DNA from: Vicinamibacteria bacterium
Lineage (GTDB): Bacteria; Acidobacteriota; Vicinamibacteria; Fen-336
NCBI GenBank assembly: GCA_025923995.1
Contig: JAICEW010000021.1
Coordinates: 1-35,261 of the forward strand
Reading direction: 5' to 3'
Length of the DNA stretch: 35,261 nucleotides
Shown here in pieces: positions 19,318 through 34,957 of this stretch. Each line of letters begins with the position of its first letter. The stretch's first letter is position 1. The translations under genes were made by a program, and so were the position numbers. The notes under the pieces were generated by a model that worked only from the letters and a program-made list of their open reading frames with translations, had not been told where the DNA came from and did not search any database.

Positions 19318-19348
19318 CCGGCCGGGCCGAGCGTTCCTACCGCCGGCT
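19316..19348. terminator. Bidirectional hairpin between convergent genes
   Basis: AGCCGGC (19316-19322) pairs perfectly with GCCGGCT (19342-19348) over a 19-nt loop. It spans both stop codons. No T-run. Confidence 0.4.
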
Positions 19349-21394
19349 TGCGGCCAGCAGCCCTTCGGCCAGGACGATGTCCGCGTCGCCCTCCGCCACC
19401 GCGGCCAGGATCGAGCGCCCGTCGGCGGACCAGCTCACGCGACGCGCCACCAGGGTCACCCGGTCCCCGAAGTCCGTCACCTGCCGCCACTCGCCGGTCG
19501 CGGTGCCGAGCGCCCACACGTTCGTGGTCAGCCCGTCGGTCAGGGGCAGGGCCAGCCACTTCCCGTCCGGCGACAGCGCGGGGTTCACGATCTGCCAGGC
19601 GGCGACGCGCGACGCCCCCACCCGCCCCACCACGCGCGAGGGCCCGTCCTCGGGGCTCGCCGCCCGGATCTCGAACTCGGGACGCCCGTCGACCAGCGGT
19701 CGCTCGACGACGTAGTACAGCGTGCCGTCGTGCAGCCCGACCACGTTGCGCGCCGGCTCCGGGCGCACGGTGACGGCGGCTCCCCCCTCCGCCGGCACCT
19801 TCTTGAGCACGCCCTCGTCCACGAAGTAGAGCCACCGCCCGTCGGCCGACCAGCCGGCGCCCAGTCCGCGCGGGGCGAGCAGCCGCAGGCCGCTGCCGTC
19901 CGGGTTCACGCTCCACAGTCCGAACACGAAGCCGCGGTTCCCGCGGGACGAGACGAAGACGATCGAGCGGCCGTCGGGCGACCAGATGGGAACGCCCACC
20001 GCCACGCTCGGATCCCGTTCGTGGGTGATCTGGCGCATCTCGCCGGTGGCGGCCGACATCACCCAGATGTTCGCGTGGCCGCCGCTGTCGGAGAGGAACG
20101 CGATCTCGCGGTCCTGCGGACCAGTGGTCGGCGTGCGCACCTGTCCCGTCTGGCGCGTGATGGGGACGCCGCGACGCACGTTCTCCGCGGGCGCGCCGTC
20201 GACCGGGAACCTCCAGACGTCCGAGTGCAGCCACAGCCGGCTCGCCGCCAGCGTGCCCATGGCGTCCACGTCCGGCTGCCCGTAGGACGCCTCGTCGGAC
20301 GAGATGCGCTCCACGCGGCCGCCCTCGAGCCAGGCCTTCCACAACCCCAGGGGCGGCAGGTACGGGAGCGTGCTGTCGTGAGCCGAGCTGAACACCACGG
20401 CCCGGCCGTCCGGCGTCCACGCCAGCCCGTTGACCAGGCTGCTGTCCTTCGTGAGCTGCAGGGGCCGGCCGGCCCCGTCGCTGCGGACGGCGAAGACGTC
20501 GAAGCGGACGCCGTCGCCCTCCTGGTACGCGATCCACCTGGCGTCGCGCGACCAGCGGGGGTTGCGGTAGTAGCGGCCGGGAGGGAACCGGCCGACCACG
20601 GGCGACGACGCGCCGTCCCTGGAGACGGCCACCAGCTGCACCTGGCCGCCGTCGAGTCGGAAGCAGGCCAGGCGGCCGTCCGCCGCCACGTCGGCGTCGC
20701 TCAGGCTGGCCGTGACCCGCCGGGGCGTGCCGCCGAGCGCGGGGACCTCCCAGACGTCGCCCGGGCGCTCCGCGGTGGCGTCGGGCGCGAAGTACACGAG
20801 GGTGCTCGAGTCCGGCCCCCAGCGCGGCCACTGGTGATCGGCCGGGTCGCTCGTGACCCGCAGCGGCGGGCCGCCGGCGACGAGGCGCACGAAGACCTGC
20901 CGGTGCGCGCCTTCGACGGCCGTGAACGCGACCGCCTTGCCGTCCGGCGACAGCGCCGGCGACTCCTCGAGGCCTACCCTCTCCGTGATGCGGTGGAAGC
21001 GCGCCGCCAACGCGGCCGGGCGATCCGCCGCCCCACGCCGGCCCACGCCGTAGCCGGCGGCCACCGCGGCGGCGAGCGCCAGGACGGGGAGCGCGATCGA
21101 GGCCGGCGATCGCCGCGACGGAGACGGATCGGCGTCCGGCGGCGCGGGAGCCAGCGGCTCCTCCTGCTCCAGCCGCAGCCGGCGGCCCTGCCACCAGCCG
21201 TCCAGCTCCGACGCGAAGGCGTAGACGGACCCGATCTTGTCGTGCAGGTGCCGGTGGACGGGCATGCCCTCCCGCTTCTCCCAGCGCTGGACGGTGCTGA
21301 TGTCGCGGTTGAGGTAGGCGGCGACCGCCTTCCAGGACTCCAGCCGGGTCCCAGGGTCTTCGGCGACGGTCGGGGTGGCCACCCGATCCTTCAT
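19337..21394 (-). CDS. Transmembrane HTH regulator-like protein with PD40/TolB-type beta-propeller
   Basis: A 685-aa protein. Residues ~18-70 form a short DNA-binding-like domain: ESWKAVAAYLNRDISTVQRW, then KREGMPVHRHLH and SELDGWW, a module very common in Acidobacteriota. A proline-rich linker leads to one membrane helix (~98-117). The rest is a WD40-like PD40 propeller with repeated SPDGKxxAF / W-SPDGRSI-F-S units (for example ALSPDGKAVAF, WTPDGRAVVFSS, WSPDGRSIVFVSS, LSPDGKWLALPL). Topology implies a cytoplasmic DNA-binding head and an extracytoplasmic propeller, as in a one-component membrane sensor. The start at 21394 gives the complete HTH. It diverges from phaR across 156 bp holding two dyads, so both may be co-regulated. 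DNA targets and ligand are unknown. Confidence 0.85.
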   Translation of the reverse strand: MKDRVATPTVAEDPGTRLESWKAVAAYLNRDISTVQRWEKREGMPVHRHLHDKIGSVYAFASELDGWWQGRRLRLEQEEPLAPAPPDADPSPSRRSPASIALPVLALAAAVAAGYGVGRRGAADRPAALAARFHRITERVGLEESPALSPDGKAVAFTAVEGAHRQVFVRLVAGGPPLRVTSDPADHQWPRWGPDSSTLVYFAPDATAERPGDVWEVPALGGTPRRVTASLSDADVAADGRLACFRLDGGQVQLVAVSRDGASSPVVGRFPPGRYYRNPRWSRDARWIAYQEGDGVRFDVFAVRSDGAGRPLQLTKDSSLVNGLAWTPDGRAVVFSSAHDSTLPYLPPLGLWKAWLEGGRVERISSDEASYGQPDVDAMGTLAASRLWLHSDVWRFPVDGAPAENVRRGVPITRQTGQVRTPTTGPQDREIAFLSDSGGHANIWVMSAATGEMRQITHERDPSVAVGVPIWSPDGRSIVFVSSRGNRGFVFGLWSVNPDGSGLRLLAPRGLGAGWSADGRWLYFVDEGVLKKVPAEGGAAVTVRPEPARNVVGLHDGTLYYVVERPLVDGRPEFEIRAASPEDGPSRVVGRVGASRVAAWQIVNPALSPDGKWLALPLTDGLTTNVWALGTATGEWRQVTDFGDRVTLVARRVSWSADGRSILAAVAEGDADIVLAEGLLAASRR

Positions 21395-21492
21395 GGCCTC
21401 GGCTCCGGTTCCATGACGTGCGAGGAGGCGATTCTACCGTCTGGGCGGTCCGCCCGGGGGACGGCGCGGGGATCGACCGCGCCCGCTCCTCT

Positions 21493-21509
21493 CTAACGCA
21501 GGGCGTCAC
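21493..21509. promoter_or_regulatory. Upstream copy of the phaR operator
   Basis: CTAACGC-AGG-GCGTCAC follows the pattern TAACGC-N3-GCGT of the dyad at 21525-21541. Centre-to-centre distance is 32 bp, about three helical turns, so two dimers would bind the same face of the DNA. Confidence 0.55.
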
Positions 21510-21515
21510 CTCCGC

Positions 21516-21544
21516 TTGACATTCATAACGCACTGCGTTATCTT
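21516..21544 (+). promoter_or_regulatory. phaR promoter with nested operator dyad
   Basis: TTGACA (21516-21521), a 17-bp spacer and TATCTT (21539-21544) form a near-consensus sigma70 promoter. A perfect dyad ATAACGC-ACT-GCGTTAT (21525-21541) fills the spacer and overlaps the -10, the place for a repressor. Transcription is expected to start about 7 bases after the -10, at GTG 21551. Confidence 0.75.
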
Positions 21545-21550
21545 GTGGGC

Positions 21551-22153
21551 GTGACGGACGGGAACGAGACGCTGATCAAGCGCTACGAGAACCGCAAGCT
21601 GTACGACCCCGGCGCGCGCCGGTACGTGACGCTCACGGACCTGGCGCGGCTGGTGGCGGACGGCGGCGAGATCCGGGTCGTGGACCAGAGGACGGGCGAG
21701 GACCTGACCACGCTGGTCCTGGCCCAGGTGGTCCTGGAGGGCATCAAGGAGCGCACGGCCGAGATCCCCCGGCACGTGCTGTCGCGGCTGATCCGGCTGG
21801 CGGCGCGGCCGGCGTCCTGGGGCGACTGGGCCTCCGCGCACGAGGTGGCCGCCCGGGCCCGCGCCGAGGCGGAGCGCATCGTGAGCGGCTTCGTGGCCAA
21901 GGGGCGCCTGAGCCTGGACGAGGCGGTGGCCGTCCGCCAGGAGATCGCCGGCACCGTGCAGCGATTGGTGTCCGACGCCCAGCAGGCGCTGGAGGCCCGC
22001 TTCCGCGGGCTGTTCGAGCGGCCGGCGCCGGGAGGCGCGCTGGCGTCGCTGCGGGCCCTGGAAGAGAGGCTGCTCGCGTTCGAGCACGTGCTGGAGCCGG
22101 AGGCGCCCCCCGCGCCTCCGGCCCGTGTCCGCCGAAGGACGGCGAAGAAGTAG
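21551..22153 (+). CDS. phaR: PHA/PHB accumulation regulator, DNA-binding
   Basis: A 200-aa member of the polyhydroxyalkanoate synthesis repressor family, which senses PHA and represses phasin genes and often itself. The N-terminal ~60 residues are the hallmark domain: LIKRYENRKLYD, RRYVTLTDLARLV, EIRVVDQRTGEDLT and TLVLAQVVLE. The rest is helical with an Ala/Pro/Arg-rich tail. Two GTG starts are possible (21545 and 21551). I choose 21551 because the -10 ends at 21544, placing +1 near 21551, and no ribosome site can fit. The mRNA is probably leaderless. The phasin gene lies 42 bp downstream, separated by a perfect palindrome. No PHA synthase (phaC) is in the window. Confidence 0.9.
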   Translation: MTDGNETLIKRYENRKLYDPGARRYVTLTDLARLVADGGEIRVVDQRTGEDLTTLVLAQVVLEGIKERTAEIPRHVLSRLIRLAARPASWGDWASAHEVAARARAEAERIVSGFVAKGRLSLDEAVAVRQEIAGTVQRLVSDAQQALEARFRGLFERPAPGGALASLRALEERLLAFEHVLEPEAPPAPPARVRRRTAKK

Positions 22154-22157
22154 GAAG

Positions 22158-22176
22158 GGCCCGCGGACCGCGGGCC
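22158..22176. promoter_or_regulatory. Perfect 19-bp palindrome between phaR and the phasin gene
   Basis: GGCCCGCGG, A, CCGCGGGCC: 9-bp arms around one base. As RNA it folds into a 7-bp GC stem with a GGACC loop, directly after the phaR stop and 13 bases before the phasin AAGGAG. It may be an attenuator, a 3' stabiliser or an operator. Confidence 0.55.
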
Positions 22177-22195
22177 GAGCAAGGAGACGAGAGTC

Positions 22196-22681
22196 ATGCC
22201 GACGAAGAAGAAGACGACCAAGCGCCGGACCGCGAAGAGCACGGCCGGCAGCACGGCCGACGTGCTGCGCGCCCGCTGGCAGGAGGCCCTCAAGGCCCTG
22301 GCCGCGGCCGAGGCCGAGCTGGAGAAGCAGTGGAAGACCCTCGTGAAGAAGAGCGGCCTCTCCGGCAAGGACGCGAAGGGCGCGCTGCAGGAGCTGCGCG
22401 TGCGGCTCGAGAAGGAGCGCCAGCGCGCGCTCAAGGGCATCGAGGCCGGCGTGGCCGGCCTGCAGGCGCGGGTCAAGGAGGAGCGGGCCACCCTCTCGCG
22501 CCGCGCCGACGAGGCGATGAAGAGCGCGCTGGTCGCGTTCAACATCCCCAGCCGGCAGGAGGTGGGCGAGCTCACGCGCAAGGTGAACGAGCTGTCGCGC
22601 AAGATCGACGCCTTCAGGGCGCCCGCGCGCAAGCCGGCCCGCAAGGCGGCGCGCCCCGCCGCCCGCCGCTCGCGCGGCTGA
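22196..22681 (+). CDS. Phasin, PhaF/PhaI-like, with basic tails
   Basis: A 161-aa polyhydroxyalkanoate granule-associated protein. The N-terminus is basic (PTKKKTTKRRTAK). Residues ~20-140 are amphipathic helix/coiled coil ending in the phasin signature FNIPSRQEVGELTRKVNELS, close to the NIPTR-x-DVE-L motif of PhaF/PhaI. The C-terminal 25 residues are a histone-like Lys/Ala/Pro/Arg tail (PARKPARKAARPAARR). In Pseudomonas PhaF such a tail binds DNA and helps share granules between daughter cells, so a similar role is inferred. AAGGAG is well placed before the ATG. It sits behind phaR, its likely repressor, and before a patatin that might act on granule lipid or polymer. Confidence 0.82.
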   Translation: MPTKKKTTKRRTAKSTAGSTADVLRARWQEALKALAAAEAELEKQWKTLVKKSGLSGKDAKGALQELRVRLEKERQRALKGIEAGVAGLQARVKEERATLSRRADEAMKSALVAFNIPSRQEVGELTRKVNELSRKIDAFRAPARKPARKAARPAARRSRG

Positions 22682-30650: not shown

Positions 30651-31667
30651 TCAGCCGAACCAGACCGAGCGGCGGCGGGCCAGGCGCCCGTCGATCATGC
30701 GCTGCACCGTGGAGCGGACGTCCTCGGAGATGCGGTTGACGAGGATCGGGTCGTCCGCGCTCTCGGGGCCGTATTCGTCGAGCCGGACCGGGTCGGCGAA
30801 CTCGATCGACCACTTGGACGGCAGGGGCACGAGCCCCAGCGGGCCCAGCAGCGGGAACGTCGGAGTGATCGGGAAGTACGGCAGGCCCAGCGGCTTCCCC
30901 ATCCAGTTGGCCTGGCCGACCATGGGATGGATCTCCTCGGCGCCCACCACGGCGCAGGGGATGATGGGCGCGCCGGTGCGCAGCGCGATGCGCACGAAGC
31001 CGCCCCGCCCGAAGCGCGCGAGGCGGTAGCGGTCCTTGAAGGGCTTGCCGACGCCCTTGACGCCTTCGGGGAAGACGCCCACCAGCTCGCCCTTGCGCAG
31101 CAGCCGCACCGCGTTGTCCGGGTTCGCCCGCACGGCCCCGCTGCGCGAGAGCAGCGGCGCCAGGAACGGCAGCAGCGCGAACATGTCGAGCGCCAGCATC
31201 CGGCACGTGCGGCGGGCCGGGTGCTCGTGCCGGACGGCCAGGCTGATCATGAGGCCGTCGTACGGCAGCACGCCCGAGTGGTTGGCGACGATCAAGCCGG
31301 CGCCGTCGCCCGGGAGGTGCTCGATGCCCTGCGCCTCGACGCGCCACCAGACCGCGTAGAGGAACTCGAACAGCGGCATGAGCGTCTCGGCGAAGCGCGC
31401 GTCGTAGCCGAACTCGTCCACGTCCTCGGAGTGGTACGAGAAGTAGACGTCGCTCCAGAAGCGCGCCGCCTTCTCCCAGGAGAGCCCGCTGCGCAGCTCC
31501 TGCACCAGGCGCGCCGCAGCCACCAGCGGACCGGGGCGCCCGCCGGCCGCAGCGCGGGCCCGCCGGAGCTGATCCTCCAGCGCGCGCACCTGCCGGCGGA
31601 GCGCCTCCGCCTCGTCGTCGCCGTCGGCCACCGGCGGGCGCAGCGGCACCACCTTGGGCCGGCTCAC
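30651..31667 (-). CDS. PlsC-type lysophospholipid acyltransferase
   Basis: A 338-aa protein that transfers an acyl chain from acyl-CoA or acyl-ACP to a glycerolipid-like acceptor. Residues 130-137 read HSGVLPYD, the HX6D form seen in actinobacterial-type relatives rather than the classic HX4D, and FPEG (199-202) binds acceptor phosphate. VANHSGVLPYDGLM and KGELVGVFPEGVKG leave little doubt about the superfamily. A charged, coiled N-terminal ~45 residues precede a helical region (AARFWSDVYFSYHSEDVDEFG) typical of this branch. The start is GTG 31667, overlapping the SDR stop as GTGA; further in-frame extension to 31856 runs opposite the conserved SDR gene and is rejected. Acceptor could be phospholipid, wax or triacylglycerol precursors. 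Confidence 0.87.
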   Translation of the reverse strand: MSRPKVVPLRPPVADGDDEAEALRRQVRALEDQLRRARAAAGGRPGPLVAAARLVQELRSGLSWEKAARFWSDVYFSYHSEDVDEFGYDARFAETLMPLFEFLYAVWWRVEAQGIEHLPGDGAGLIVANHSGVLPYDGLMISLAVRHEHPARRTCRMLALDMFALLPFLAPLLSRSGAVRANPDNAVRLLRKGELVGVFPEGVKGVGKPFKDRYRLARFGRGGFVRIALRTGAPIIPCAVVGAEEIHPMVGQANWMGKPLGLPYFPITPTFPLLGPLGLVPLPSKWSIEFADPVRLDEYGPESADDPILVNRISEDVRSTVQRMIDGRLARRRSVWFG

Positions 31668-32650
31668 GCGGTGGCCTCCACCGGCGTGGCCTCGCCCCGC
31701 GGGTGCCGGTAGCGCAGGTACGCCTCCAGCGCCTGGCGGCTCGAGTAGGTGGCGCTCCATCCCAGCTCGCGGCGCGCCTTGGCGCCGTCGGCCACGAACG
31801 GGTAGCGCACGAAGTCCACGAAGCCCCCCGGCGCGTCTCCGATGCCGGTCGTCCACAGCGCGTCCGCGGCGACGTACGCGAGCGGGTGCGGCACGGCCAC
31901 GGGGATCTTGGCGCCCAGGTGGAGCGCGGTCGCGAGCGGGATGGGGTGGGACGGCGCGACGTTGAAGATCCCGCGCGGCCGCCGCTCGACGGCGCGCAGC
32001 GCCGCCTCGACCGCGTCGTCCGGGTGCAGGAGCTGGACGAGCGGATCGAAGCCCATCAGCATCGGCACCACGCGGTGGTCGAAGATGCGCGTGTAGAACG
32101 TGTGCACGCCGGGCCCGAACAGCGGCGCGAAGCGCAGCACGGTCACGCCCAGGTCCGGGTAGCGGCGCGCGAAGGAGGCCGCGTGCTGCTCCGCCTCCAG
32201 CTTGTCGCGCAGCCAGCGCAGGCCCGAGCCGGACGGCAGGGCCCGCTCCTCCGTGAGGAAGCTCGGGTTCTGGCCGGACGCGCCGTAGACGGTGGTGGAG
32301 GAGCGCAGGAACACGTGGCGCACGCCGGCCGCCGCCGCGGCGGCGAAGAGGTTGAGCGTGCCGATCGACTCCAGCTCGTGCGCGTGCGTCGCGTCCCGGC
32401 GCGGGCTGGTGAAGAAGGCCGCGTGCAGGACGGAATCGACCTCCTCCTCGCGGAGCGCCTCCAGCAGCTGCTGGTCGGACGCGGGCTCGGTGAGGTCGAT
32501 GGCGCGGTGGCGGACGCCCAGCGCGCCCGGGGGCGCGGCCACGTCCAGCGCGACCAGGGCGTCGCCTCCCCGCTGGCCGGCCAGACGGCGCAGCAGGCGC
32601 GATCCCAGGAAGGACGACGCCCCCGTGACCGCGAGCCGGCCGGCGCTCAC
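31664..32650 (-). CDS. Extended SDR (NAD-dependent epimerase/dehydratase family), catalytic Tyr replaced
   Basis: A 328-aa Rossmann protein with TGASSFLG at 9-16, a DL acidic residue for nucleotide binding, VLHAAFF, then LRSSTTVYGAS at ~115-125. In typical extended SDRs the active site is YxxxK. Here the segment is WLRDK (146-150): the Lys is kept but the Tyr position is Trp. Some actinobacterial relatives also read RDR/RDK here, so this may be a non-canonical subfamily rather than damage. GTG 32650 overlaps the phasin stop as GTGA. Redox chemistry may be lost or use another residue; a scaffold or ligand-binding role is possible. Its placement with lipid genes suggests an acyl or sterol-like substrate rather than a sugar. 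Confidence 0.85.
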   Translation of the reverse strand: MSAGRLAVTGASSFLGSRLLRRLAGQRGGDALVALDVAAPPGALGVRHRAIDLTEPASDQQLLEALREEEVDSVLHAAFFTSPRRDATHAHELESIGTLNLFAAAAAAGVRHVFLRSSTTVYGASGQNPSFLTEERALPSGSGLRWLRDKLEAEQHAASFARRYPDLGVTVLRFAPLFGPGVHTFYTRIFDHRVVPMLMGFDPLVQLLHPDDAVEAALRAVERRPRGIFNVAPSHPIPLATALHLGAKIPVAVPHPLAYVAADALWTTGIGDAPGGFVDFVRYPFVADGAKARRELGWSATYSSRQALEAYLRYRHPRGEATPVEATA

Positions 32651-33015
32651 CTGGCGCCCTTGCGCCTCGCCGCCTTCTTGCGCGCGGCCTTGCGGCGCGG
32701 CGCCGTCGCGGCCCCCTCGGCCTTCGGCGTGCCCTGCGCGGAGGCCTTCACCGCGAGGCCCTCGACCGCCGCCTTCTGGACCGCCAGCTCGCGCTCCAGG
32801 GACTCGATCTTGGAGAGCGCCTTCTTGAACTCGGTGCGCGTGGGGATGTTCATGCCGGCCAGGGCCTGCGCGACCCCTTCCTCCAGCTTCTCCTTGCCCT
32901 TGACGGCGCCCTGCATGGCCTTCACGAAGTGCGGGTTGGCCATGAGGTCGTTCGAGAGCTGGTTCAGGACCTCTTCGCCACGCTCCTTCAGGCGATCGAA
33001 GACGCTGCGTGCCAC
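32647..33015 (-). CDS. Second phasin-like protein with basic tail
   Basis: A 122-aa protein. GTG 33015 is chosen because GGGAG lies 7 bases upstream; the in-frame ATG 54 bp further up lacks a site. Residues ~1-95 are helical (SVFDRLKERGEEVLNQLSND, MQGAVKGKEKLEEGVAQAL) and include GMNIPTRTEFKKALSKIESL, the phasin NIPTR motif also found in the phaR-linked phasin. The C-terminus is a histone-like tail (APRRKAARKKAARRKG). It lies downstream of the acyl-reductase gene by 76 bp and overlaps the SDR gene, so it is cut off from phaR. The protein may coat a lipid inclusion other than PHA, or be a second PHA phasin. Confidence 0.75.
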   Translation of the reverse strand: MARSVFDRLKERGEEVLNQLSNDLMANPHFVKAMQGAVKGKEKLEEGVAQALAGMNIPTRTEFKKALSKIESLERELAVQKAAVEGLAVKASAQGTPKAEGAATAPRRKAARKKAARRKGAR

Positions 33016-33091
33016 GGTGTGCTCCCTTCTCGAGGTTCCGACGCGAACGGCTGGGCCCACAGGATACACCCCTGGAGAACGCGAGGCACCG

Positions 33092-34957
33092 CTAGCGGCG
33101 CGCCTTGAAGGCCTTCAGGTCCACGCGGTCGGCGAGCTGGCGCTGGAACTCACGCGGGCGGATGGCGCCCGCCTCGTGCCCGGTCTCGCGCTCCATCGCC
33201 GCCAGCGTCTCGTCCCAGACCCGCTCCCGCCGCGCGATCTCGTCCGCGTCCTTGACCCGCCCGAAGTCCTGCACGTACTTGTTGTGGCGGCACAGCATGC
33301 GGAAGGCGTGCTCGGTGTCGGGCCGGCGGATGGGCAGGCCCAGGATGCGCACGTCGTTGCCGACCGAGTGCACCGGCTGGCCCCACTCGCTGTACCCGCC
33401 GAAGATCGTCCCCAGCTTCTCCAGGCCGTTGGCCAGGCGCGCCTCCCCCAGCCACGTCAGCGTGGACTTCATGAGCGGCAGCGTGAAGTTCCGGTAGACG
33501 GTCGGATCGGCCAGGCGCACGCGCACGCCCAGCTCCTCGCGGTTGATGCGCAGCATGTCCTCGGAGCGGATGCGGTTGTCGGTCGCCAGGTGGATGCGGT
33601 TCCCGATCGCGTCGGGGGCGCCCAGCGCGGCCAGGATGCCCGCGACCACGCGGTCCACGGGCACCAGGTTCAGCTCGGCCGTGGGGTCGCCAGGGAAGTT
33701 GCCGGCCAGCAGGCCGATGACGCGCGCCTTGGCCTGGTCGGTCAGGCCCTCGGCCGCCTCGATCGCCTGCTGGGCCCGCCCGAACGCGTTGATGGGCGCG
33801 TTCACCACCTTGGTGTCGCCCCGGTTGTTGCCGCTGCGCGAGTGGCCGATCACGATCGACGGCAGCAGCTGCGCCACGCGCAGGCCGTGGTCGATGAGCG
33901 CGCGGTCGGTCTCGATCGACGCCATCGCCTTGGTCAGCTCGTAGTAGTTGTTGTAGAAGTGCCGGGGGAAGACGAGCGCGTTCTCCTGCGCCATCGAGCG
34001 CCGCTTGCGGCCGTGGATGTACGAGGTCTCGATGGCGATGTGGGCCACGAAGGCCGAGTCGGGCGTCTCCTGCACGGCGCGCGAGAAGGCGAGCGCGTTC
34101 TTGCTGCCCAGCACGTTGGCGCGGAAGCTCGTCTCGTAGGGGTCGTCGAACGACACGCTGGCCGCGCAGTGGATGACGTGGGTCAGGGTGCGGCGCAGCT
34201 CCTGCAGGTCGGATTCGCCCAGCCCCAGGTGCGGCTTCTCGATGTCGCCCTCCACGAAACGGAACTTGCGTGCCTGGGAGGGCTTGAGGTGCAGCCGCTT
34301 GAGCAGCAGCGCGCCGCGCTGCTGCGGTGTCAGGACCTTCACGACCTCCCTGGTCCTGTGATCGCGGATGGTCTCCGGCCGCACCACCGCGACCAGCTCC
34401 TCGATGCGCCGGTCCGACGCCGCCTGGTGGAGGATCTCCTTGCCCAGGAAGCCGGTCGCGCCGGTCAGGAGCACGCGCAGCTTCGGCTGGCGCCCGCGTC
34501 GGCGCAGCGCGGCGGCCGCGTCCCGCTGCAGCTTCTCGACGCGCGCTTTGACGTCCTTCTCCGACAGGTGCGAGGTCTCGCGGAAGCGGAACTGGTGGCT
34601 GCGGTCCACCACTCCCAGCAGGCGGCGCGCCCGACGCTCGAGCCCTTCCCCCCCGACGACGGAGCCCACGGTCCGCGCGACGAACGAGCCCACCTGGTTG
34701 ATCGCCCGCAGGCCGTCGCCCACCGCGCCCTCGGCGCCGGTGAGCTGGACCGCGCGGTTGGCCAGGAACTGGACGGCGACCTCGAGCGGATGGTTGTCCC
34801 GGTGCGCGTGCACCAGCAGCTCCGCCGGGTCGATGGGGCCGGGGATCTCCTCGCCGGTGATGCGGCTCAGGCGCGCGATGTAGCGCTCGGGCGCCGGGTC
34901 GAACGCGGCCGGCTCCTCGGCGGCGGGGCCACGTCGGGATCGCGCTCGGGCCTTCAT
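33092..34957 (-). CDS. Fatty acyl-CoA/thioester reductase-like SDR (NAD_binding_4)
   Basis: A 621-aa soluble protein. An N-terminal ~155-residue helical region is followed by a Rossmann domain: LLTGATGFLGKEILHQ (motif at 165-172), FVEGDIEKPHLGL, THVIHCAASVSFDDPY, NVLGSKNAL and the catalytic YELTK (Tyr339, Lys343). LPSIVIGHS and LNLVPVDRVVAGI are typical of the male-sterility/fatty acyl-CoA reductase branch, and the C-terminal ~150 residues resemble the sterile domain. Such enzymes reduce acyl-thioesters to aldehyde or alcohol with NADPH, for example for wax esters or ether lipids. ATG 34957 has no strong ribosome site. All catalytic residues are present. It heads the lipid block with phasin, SDR and acyltransferase downstream. 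Confidence 0.85.
   Translation of the reverse strand: MKARARSRRGPAAEEPAAFDPAPERYIARLSRITGEEIPGPIDPAELLVHAHRDNHPLEVAVQFLANRAVQLTGAEGAVGDGLRAINQVGSFVARTVGSVVGGEGLERRARRLLGVVDRSHQFRFRETSHLSEKDVKARVEKLQRDAAAALRRRGRQPKLRVLLTGATGFLGKEILHQAASDRRIEELVAVVRPETIRDHRTREVVKVLTPQQRGALLLKRLHLKPSQARKFRFVEGDIEKPHLGLGESDLQELRRTLTHVIHCAASVSFDDPYETSFRANVLGSKNALAFSRAVQETPDSAFVAHIAIETSYIHGRKRRSMAQENALVFPRHFYNNYYELTKAMASIETDRALIDHGLRVAQLLPSIVIGHSRSGNNRGDTKVVNAPINAFGRAQQAIEAAEGLTDQAKARVIGLLAGNFPGDPTAELNLVPVDRVVAGILAALGAPDAIGNRIHLATDNRIRSEDMLRINREELGVRVRLADPTVYRNFTLPLMKSTLTWLGEARLANGLEKLGTIFGGYSEWGQPVHSVGNDVRILGLPIRRPDTEHAFRMLCRHNKYVQDFGRVKDADEIARRERVWDETLAAMERETGHEAGAIRPREFQRQLADRVDLKAFKARR

Follow-up and report, generated by a model that had tools for sequence, protein, structure and literature searches.

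Paired PhaR-type boxes in a predicted leaderless promoter point to probable autorepression of an acidobacterial phaR-phasin operon

Autorepression by a PhaR-like regulator, acting through paired boxes in the promoter of its own leaderless gene and relieved by titration onto a granule, was the best explanation for the phaR-phasin(-patatin) operon in the window (the whole stretch of 35,261 nucleotides that was analysed), and we consider it highly probable. This reading was preferred because the dyads, their spacing and the position of the start codon were conserved, the dyad fitted the known PhaR box, and, of the 20 dyads that an unbiased survey of 396 Acidobacteriota genomes found inside a TTGAC promoter, 16 were located directly upstream of genes with the PhaR domain (PF07879). 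New relative to the described systems were the TAAC/GTTA arms, the leaderless start, the single promoter-located target found and a genome with no detectable polyhydroxyalkanoate (PHA) synthase.

The sequence from position 21490 is TCTCTAACGCAGGGCGTCACCTCCGCTTGACATTCATAACGCACTGCGTTATCTTGTGGGCGTGACGG. The sole sigma70-like promoter in the region 21300-22250 was TTGACA-N17-TATCTT on the forward strand (0 in 50 shuffles), with the -35 hexamer at 21516-21521, a 17 nt spacer at 21522-21538 and the -10 hexamer at 21539-21544. The phaR-like gene (21551-22153, forward strand) starts with a GTG at 21551-21553, 6 nt past the -10 hexamer and at the predicted +1, and the promoter and start codon proposed in the first-pass annotation were therefore all in place. 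An alternative in-frame GTG at 21545 would precede the predicted +1 and was not kept in relatives. The transcript is predicted to begin at or next to the GTG with no 5' leader. The -10 hexamer begins 12 nt before the GTG and there is no Shine-Dalgarno sequence, as in the bacterial leaderless genes whose start codon is preceded at about 12 bp by a TANNNT box and which are common in Acidobacteria (PMC3160421). Leaderless genes as such are ordinary in this phylum, since 9.7-19.4% of its genes are predicted to be leaderless (PMC3160421). What stands out at phaR, unlike in the general TANNNT class, is that the -10 box doubles as the edge of an operator, with bases common to both.

Two dyads, both putative operators, were associated with this promoter. 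A perfect dyad, ATAACGC-ACT-GCGTTAT, had been described as filling the spacer. A perfect dyad was present (21525-21541), but it was better written as 8+1+8, ATAACGCA-C-TGCGTTAT, than as 7-N3-7, and it extended out of the 3' part of the spacer into the first three bases (TAT) of the -10 hexamer. The second copy was found 32 bp upstream of the proximal one, as had been noted, at 21494-21508 (TAACGC-AGG-GCGTCA, TAACGCAGGGCGTCA). With 10.5 bp to a helical turn, the distance between the dyads is 3.05 turns, and both are predicted to lie on the same DNA face because the spacing is three turns.

The rarity of the motif was assessed by a pattern search of the 6.8 Mb genome. The search for TAACGC-N3-GCGTTA that had been recommended as a check returned, at no more than one mismatch, only the two promoter sites. 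The relaxed pattern TRACGCN3GCGTYA had four more exact genome sites, and these were rejected as extra targets since all were inside predicted coding genes. The genome thus yielded a promoter-located site at the phaR operon and nowhere else. Within the window, a search at up to three mismatches gave 6 sites against 6.7 expected, no excess, and at this stringency is uninformative.

Conservation was examined in the family of the window (f1) and its sister family (f2), where PhaR homologues were present in 11 further f1 genomes and two f2 genomes, giving 14 loci with the window and 12 f1 loci including it. The exact proximal dyad was inside the spacer at all 14 loci (0 in shuffles), and a distal partner with at most one mismatch was located 30-33 bp upstream at 11 of them (again 0 in shuffles), although the distal box was degenerate in several relatives as well as in the window. 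The TTGAC of the -35 was nearly invariant. Column information across the 14 loci was 1.77 bits in the dyad, 1.20 bits in the TTGAC block and about 0.3 bits in the flanks. A start codon followed the dyad by 9-11 nt in all 12 f1 loci and by 15 nt in both f2 loci, with no Shine-Dalgarno sequence, from which the leaderless start also appears to be conserved. The first-pass reading of a leaderless phaR under a repression switch with paired operators, which was to be abandoned if the dyads were missing from orthologous promoters, withstood this comparison.

The product of the phaR-like gene contains the PHB_acc_N DNA-binding domain (PF07879, 80.9 bits, E 7.4e-23, cut-off 25). Its score against the equivalog model TIGR01848 was 64.5 bits, under the cut-off of 109.45, and it is therefore termed PhaR-like rather than a certified PhaR. 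The C-terminal PHB_acc domain (PF05233) was not detected even at E 10, only the N-terminal domain being recognised. The predicted structure (mean pLDDT 82.8) has long helices in the C-terminal part; comparison of the model with the PDB gave no significant match, and no solved structure of a PhaR was found on searching. A phasin gene (PF05597, 22196-22681, forward strand) is located 42 nt past phaR behind a Shine-Dalgarno-like AAGGAG and is probably the second gene of the operon; a phasin adjacent to the regulator, a mark of PhaR, was also seen in relatives. A patatin-like lipase gene (PF01734, 22791-23987, forward strand) is the conserved third gene. The order rnj-ftsK-amiC-(lapA-like)-phaR-phasin-patatin was kept in ten f1/f2 neighbourhoods, with patatin undetected in one.

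The dyads were compared with the PhaR boxes described in Proteobacteria. The Sinorhizobium meliloti PhaR (AniA) box, WNWD2NYGCRNYGCRNH2WNW, has the core YGCRNYGCR and one central base (PMC12542648), and its full 21-mer matched the window at one place only, 21523-21543, which is the proximal site. The distal core, CGCAGGGCG, departs from YGCRNYGCR at one position. At the S. meliloti phaP1 and phaP2 promoters two copies of the box likewise flank the -35 and the phasin genes are repressed, with binding to the boxes demonstrated by EMSA (PMC12542648). The Ralstonia eutropha PhaR motif, YTKNTGCRNYGCANMAR, has a single central base as well (PMC12849132) and shares the GCRNYGC core, and its protein binds cooperatively near the -35/-10, where the window boxes also lie, and is released by polymer, much as is proposed here for the window protein (PMC12849132, PMC3570403). 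In S. meliloti the boxes regulate phasin genes that stand apart, along with many further genes, whereas the only promoter-located site found in the window genome is at the phaR operon and has TAAC/GTTA arms; R. eutropha also has other outer arms, and a PHA synthase. The haloarchaeal phaRP operon is similar in that the regulator represses a single promoter driving both its own gene and the phasin gene, but that regulator has an AbrB-like DNA-binding domain from a family other than PF07879 (review PMC9049629).

From these features we infer the following circuit. PhaR, probably as a dimer, would occupy the 17-bp box between the -35 and the -10, overlapping the latter, and would bind cooperatively to the weaker distal box, which lies three turns farther upstream. 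The two boxes thus flank the -35, and their occupancy would block RNA polymerase. Cooperative binding on one face is plausible because 32 bp is three turns and the same two-box layout occurs at the S. meliloti phasin promoters. When the promoter is on, transcription would start at or near the GTG, with PhaR translated from a leaderless mRNA and the phasin from its own Shine-Dalgarno sequence. A hydrophobic granule surface would titrate PhaR off the DNA and open the operon, and coat protein would be made until free PhaR rises again. Strong autoregulation at the window phaR is a prediction that departs from the studied species, where it is not the rule since own-promoter binding is weak: the S. 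meliloti protein shows weak binding to the phaR promoter, and PhaR autoregulation is described as weak and probably not conserved in the studied Proteobacteria (PMC12542648), and R. eutropha PhaR barely binds the phaR promoter (PMC3570403).

The granule that is sensed may differ from those of the known systems. A PHA synthase encoded in the same genome, expected for a PhaR, was not found by PF07167 or TIGR01836 in 17 f1/f2 genomes, many of them more than 92% complete, although both models find synthases elsewhere. The sensed surface may for this reason not be PHA, and PhaR here may respond to a different hydrophobic inclusion. Convergent to the phaR operon is a gene group on the reverse strand that was conserved in relatives, comprising an acyltransferase (PF01553, weak DAGAT similarity, 30651-31670), an SDR/NAD-dependent epimerase-like gene (31664-32650), a second phasin-like small protein (32647-33069, PF05597 at 20.8 bits, below the cut-off) and an NAD_binding_4 fatty acyl-CoA reductase-like gene (PF07993, 33092-34957), the last present in most loci. 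In the distant genome G376, phaR, phasin, patatin, acyltransferase, SDR and phasin-like genes occurred together in a different neighbourhood, there without the reductase. As these genes stay together in f1/f2 and in the distant genome, they would appear to function as a unit at a hydrophobic inclusion. We tentatively propose that the leaderless, self-repressed PhaR-phasin-patatin circuit and the linked lipid genes provide surface sensing for a hydrophobic inclusion other than PHA, for example droplets of wax ester or another neutral lipid. Genes 30651-34957 are candidate neutral-lipid inclusion genes. Wax ester made by WS/DGAT was rejected as a general explanation; one such gene was found in the window genome, a few relatives have any and most have none.

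A competing explanation leaves the autoregulation as described and concerns the sensing part only, namely that the polymer is ordinary PHA made by a synthase too divergent for the two models to detect, or that the module is a relic of a PHA metabolism since lost. This is conceivable to a similar, limited degree. PhaR and phasin are PHA proteins wherever they have been studied, and 28 of the 30 genomes of the phylum with strong synthase matches (E below 1e-30 in the sample of 396) also have PhaR. PHA from an unrecognised synthase could also accommodate the third gene of the operon, because in Haloferax mediterranei a patatin-like protein acts as PHA depolymerase, according to Liu et al. 2015 as cited in PMC4823750. 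The failure of both synthase models in all 17 f1/f2 genomes counts against a PHA polymer, and a relic would hardly be expected to keep its operator and genes conserved. In the same sample PhaR was present in 86 genomes, and 58 of these, about two thirds, had no strong synthase match, which raises for the phylum the question of what PhaR senses in genomes where no synthase is detectable.

That PhaR itself binds the dyad, one of the candidates named in the first-pass annotation, was the likely outcome, as the dyad fits the PhaR box in palindrome, core and position at the -35/-10 and tracks PF07879 genes across phyla. In classes and phyla beyond the window's own, a site with at most one mismatch was present upstream of the phaR gene at 31 of 36 loci against 0.12 expected; outside Acidobacteriota these included Rhodothermota/Bacteroidota, KSB1, Calditrichota, Methylomirabilota and Planctomycetota. 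The central triplet was RNY in 27/27 PhaR-linked proximal sites, as the known core requires. A second set of Acidobacteriota PhaR promoters without the TRACGC arms kept the core YGCRNYGCR in 26 of 29 cases, against 3.9 in shuffles, with arms that were TTGCTGC-like or TGCCGC; many of those genomes have a PHA synthase. Site sets and PhaR subgroups clustered on the tree. Since the core tracks PhaR while the arms vary between subgroups, this pattern is strong, though indirect, evidence for PhaR as the binder.

The dyad alone cannot name its binder, because similar dyads serve higB promoters: the remaining four of the 20 promoter-embedded dyads precede HigB-type toxin genes in other Acidobacteriota, where TAACGC-N3-GCGTTA is placed as at phaR, ending 10 nt ahead of the start codon. 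An unlinked regulator, for instance an antitoxin of the HigA (XRE) type, could be imagined as the binder on this basis, and Pseudomonas aeruginosa HigA binds TTAACGTTAA (PMC6987408). We regard it as improbable, as no higBA adjoins phaR, the genes downstream being PF07879, phasin and patatin, the dyad follows PF07879 genes across phyla, and the RNY centre that all the PhaR-linked proximal sites keep is broken at two of the four higB promoters.

The divergent HTH-plus-beta-propeller gene (19337-21394, reverse strand), which had been thought to share the switch, was missing from the interval separating phaR from the lapA-like gene in 10/10 f1/f2 neighbourhoods that retain the dyads; it is most simply a lineage-specific insertion that would lie outside the switch. 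Divergent regulators often bind the intergenic DNA between both genes, and the propeller protein carries an HTH-like region at its N terminus and is divergently transcribed from 150 bp away, but that the operator is its own or is common to both genes is already largely refuted and very improbable indeed, given those ten neighbourhoods, the same dyads upstream of phaR in other phyla and the lack in 21300-22250 of any promoter-like site facing the propeller gene. A TetR-type regulator, also put forward earlier, found no support as the binder, nor did the propeller protein, and no tetR gene was among the identified neighbours.

With PhaR as the probable binder, the strong predicted boxes at phaR promoters of several phyla suggest that, outside Proteobacteria, autoregulation is ancestral or was selected more than once, and the core/arm pattern offers a readable code for PhaR specificity, with one common core and three arm dialects. 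In the second-set phaR promoters (loci L178-L206) the PhaR core is combined with other arms, which suggests that PhaR proteins differ in their specificity dialect. At the four higB-type genes (L168, L169, L171 and L172) the dyad is again embedded in a TTGAC promoter, a leaderless operator-in-spacer layout that is convergent with that of phaR. Three genomes, G107 (L161/L202), G299 (L164/L205) and G404 (L165/L198), have two PhaR-domain genes each, one with the TRACGC promoter and one lacking it; for G107 and G299, a PHA synthase lies no more than a few kb from the gene that lacks it.
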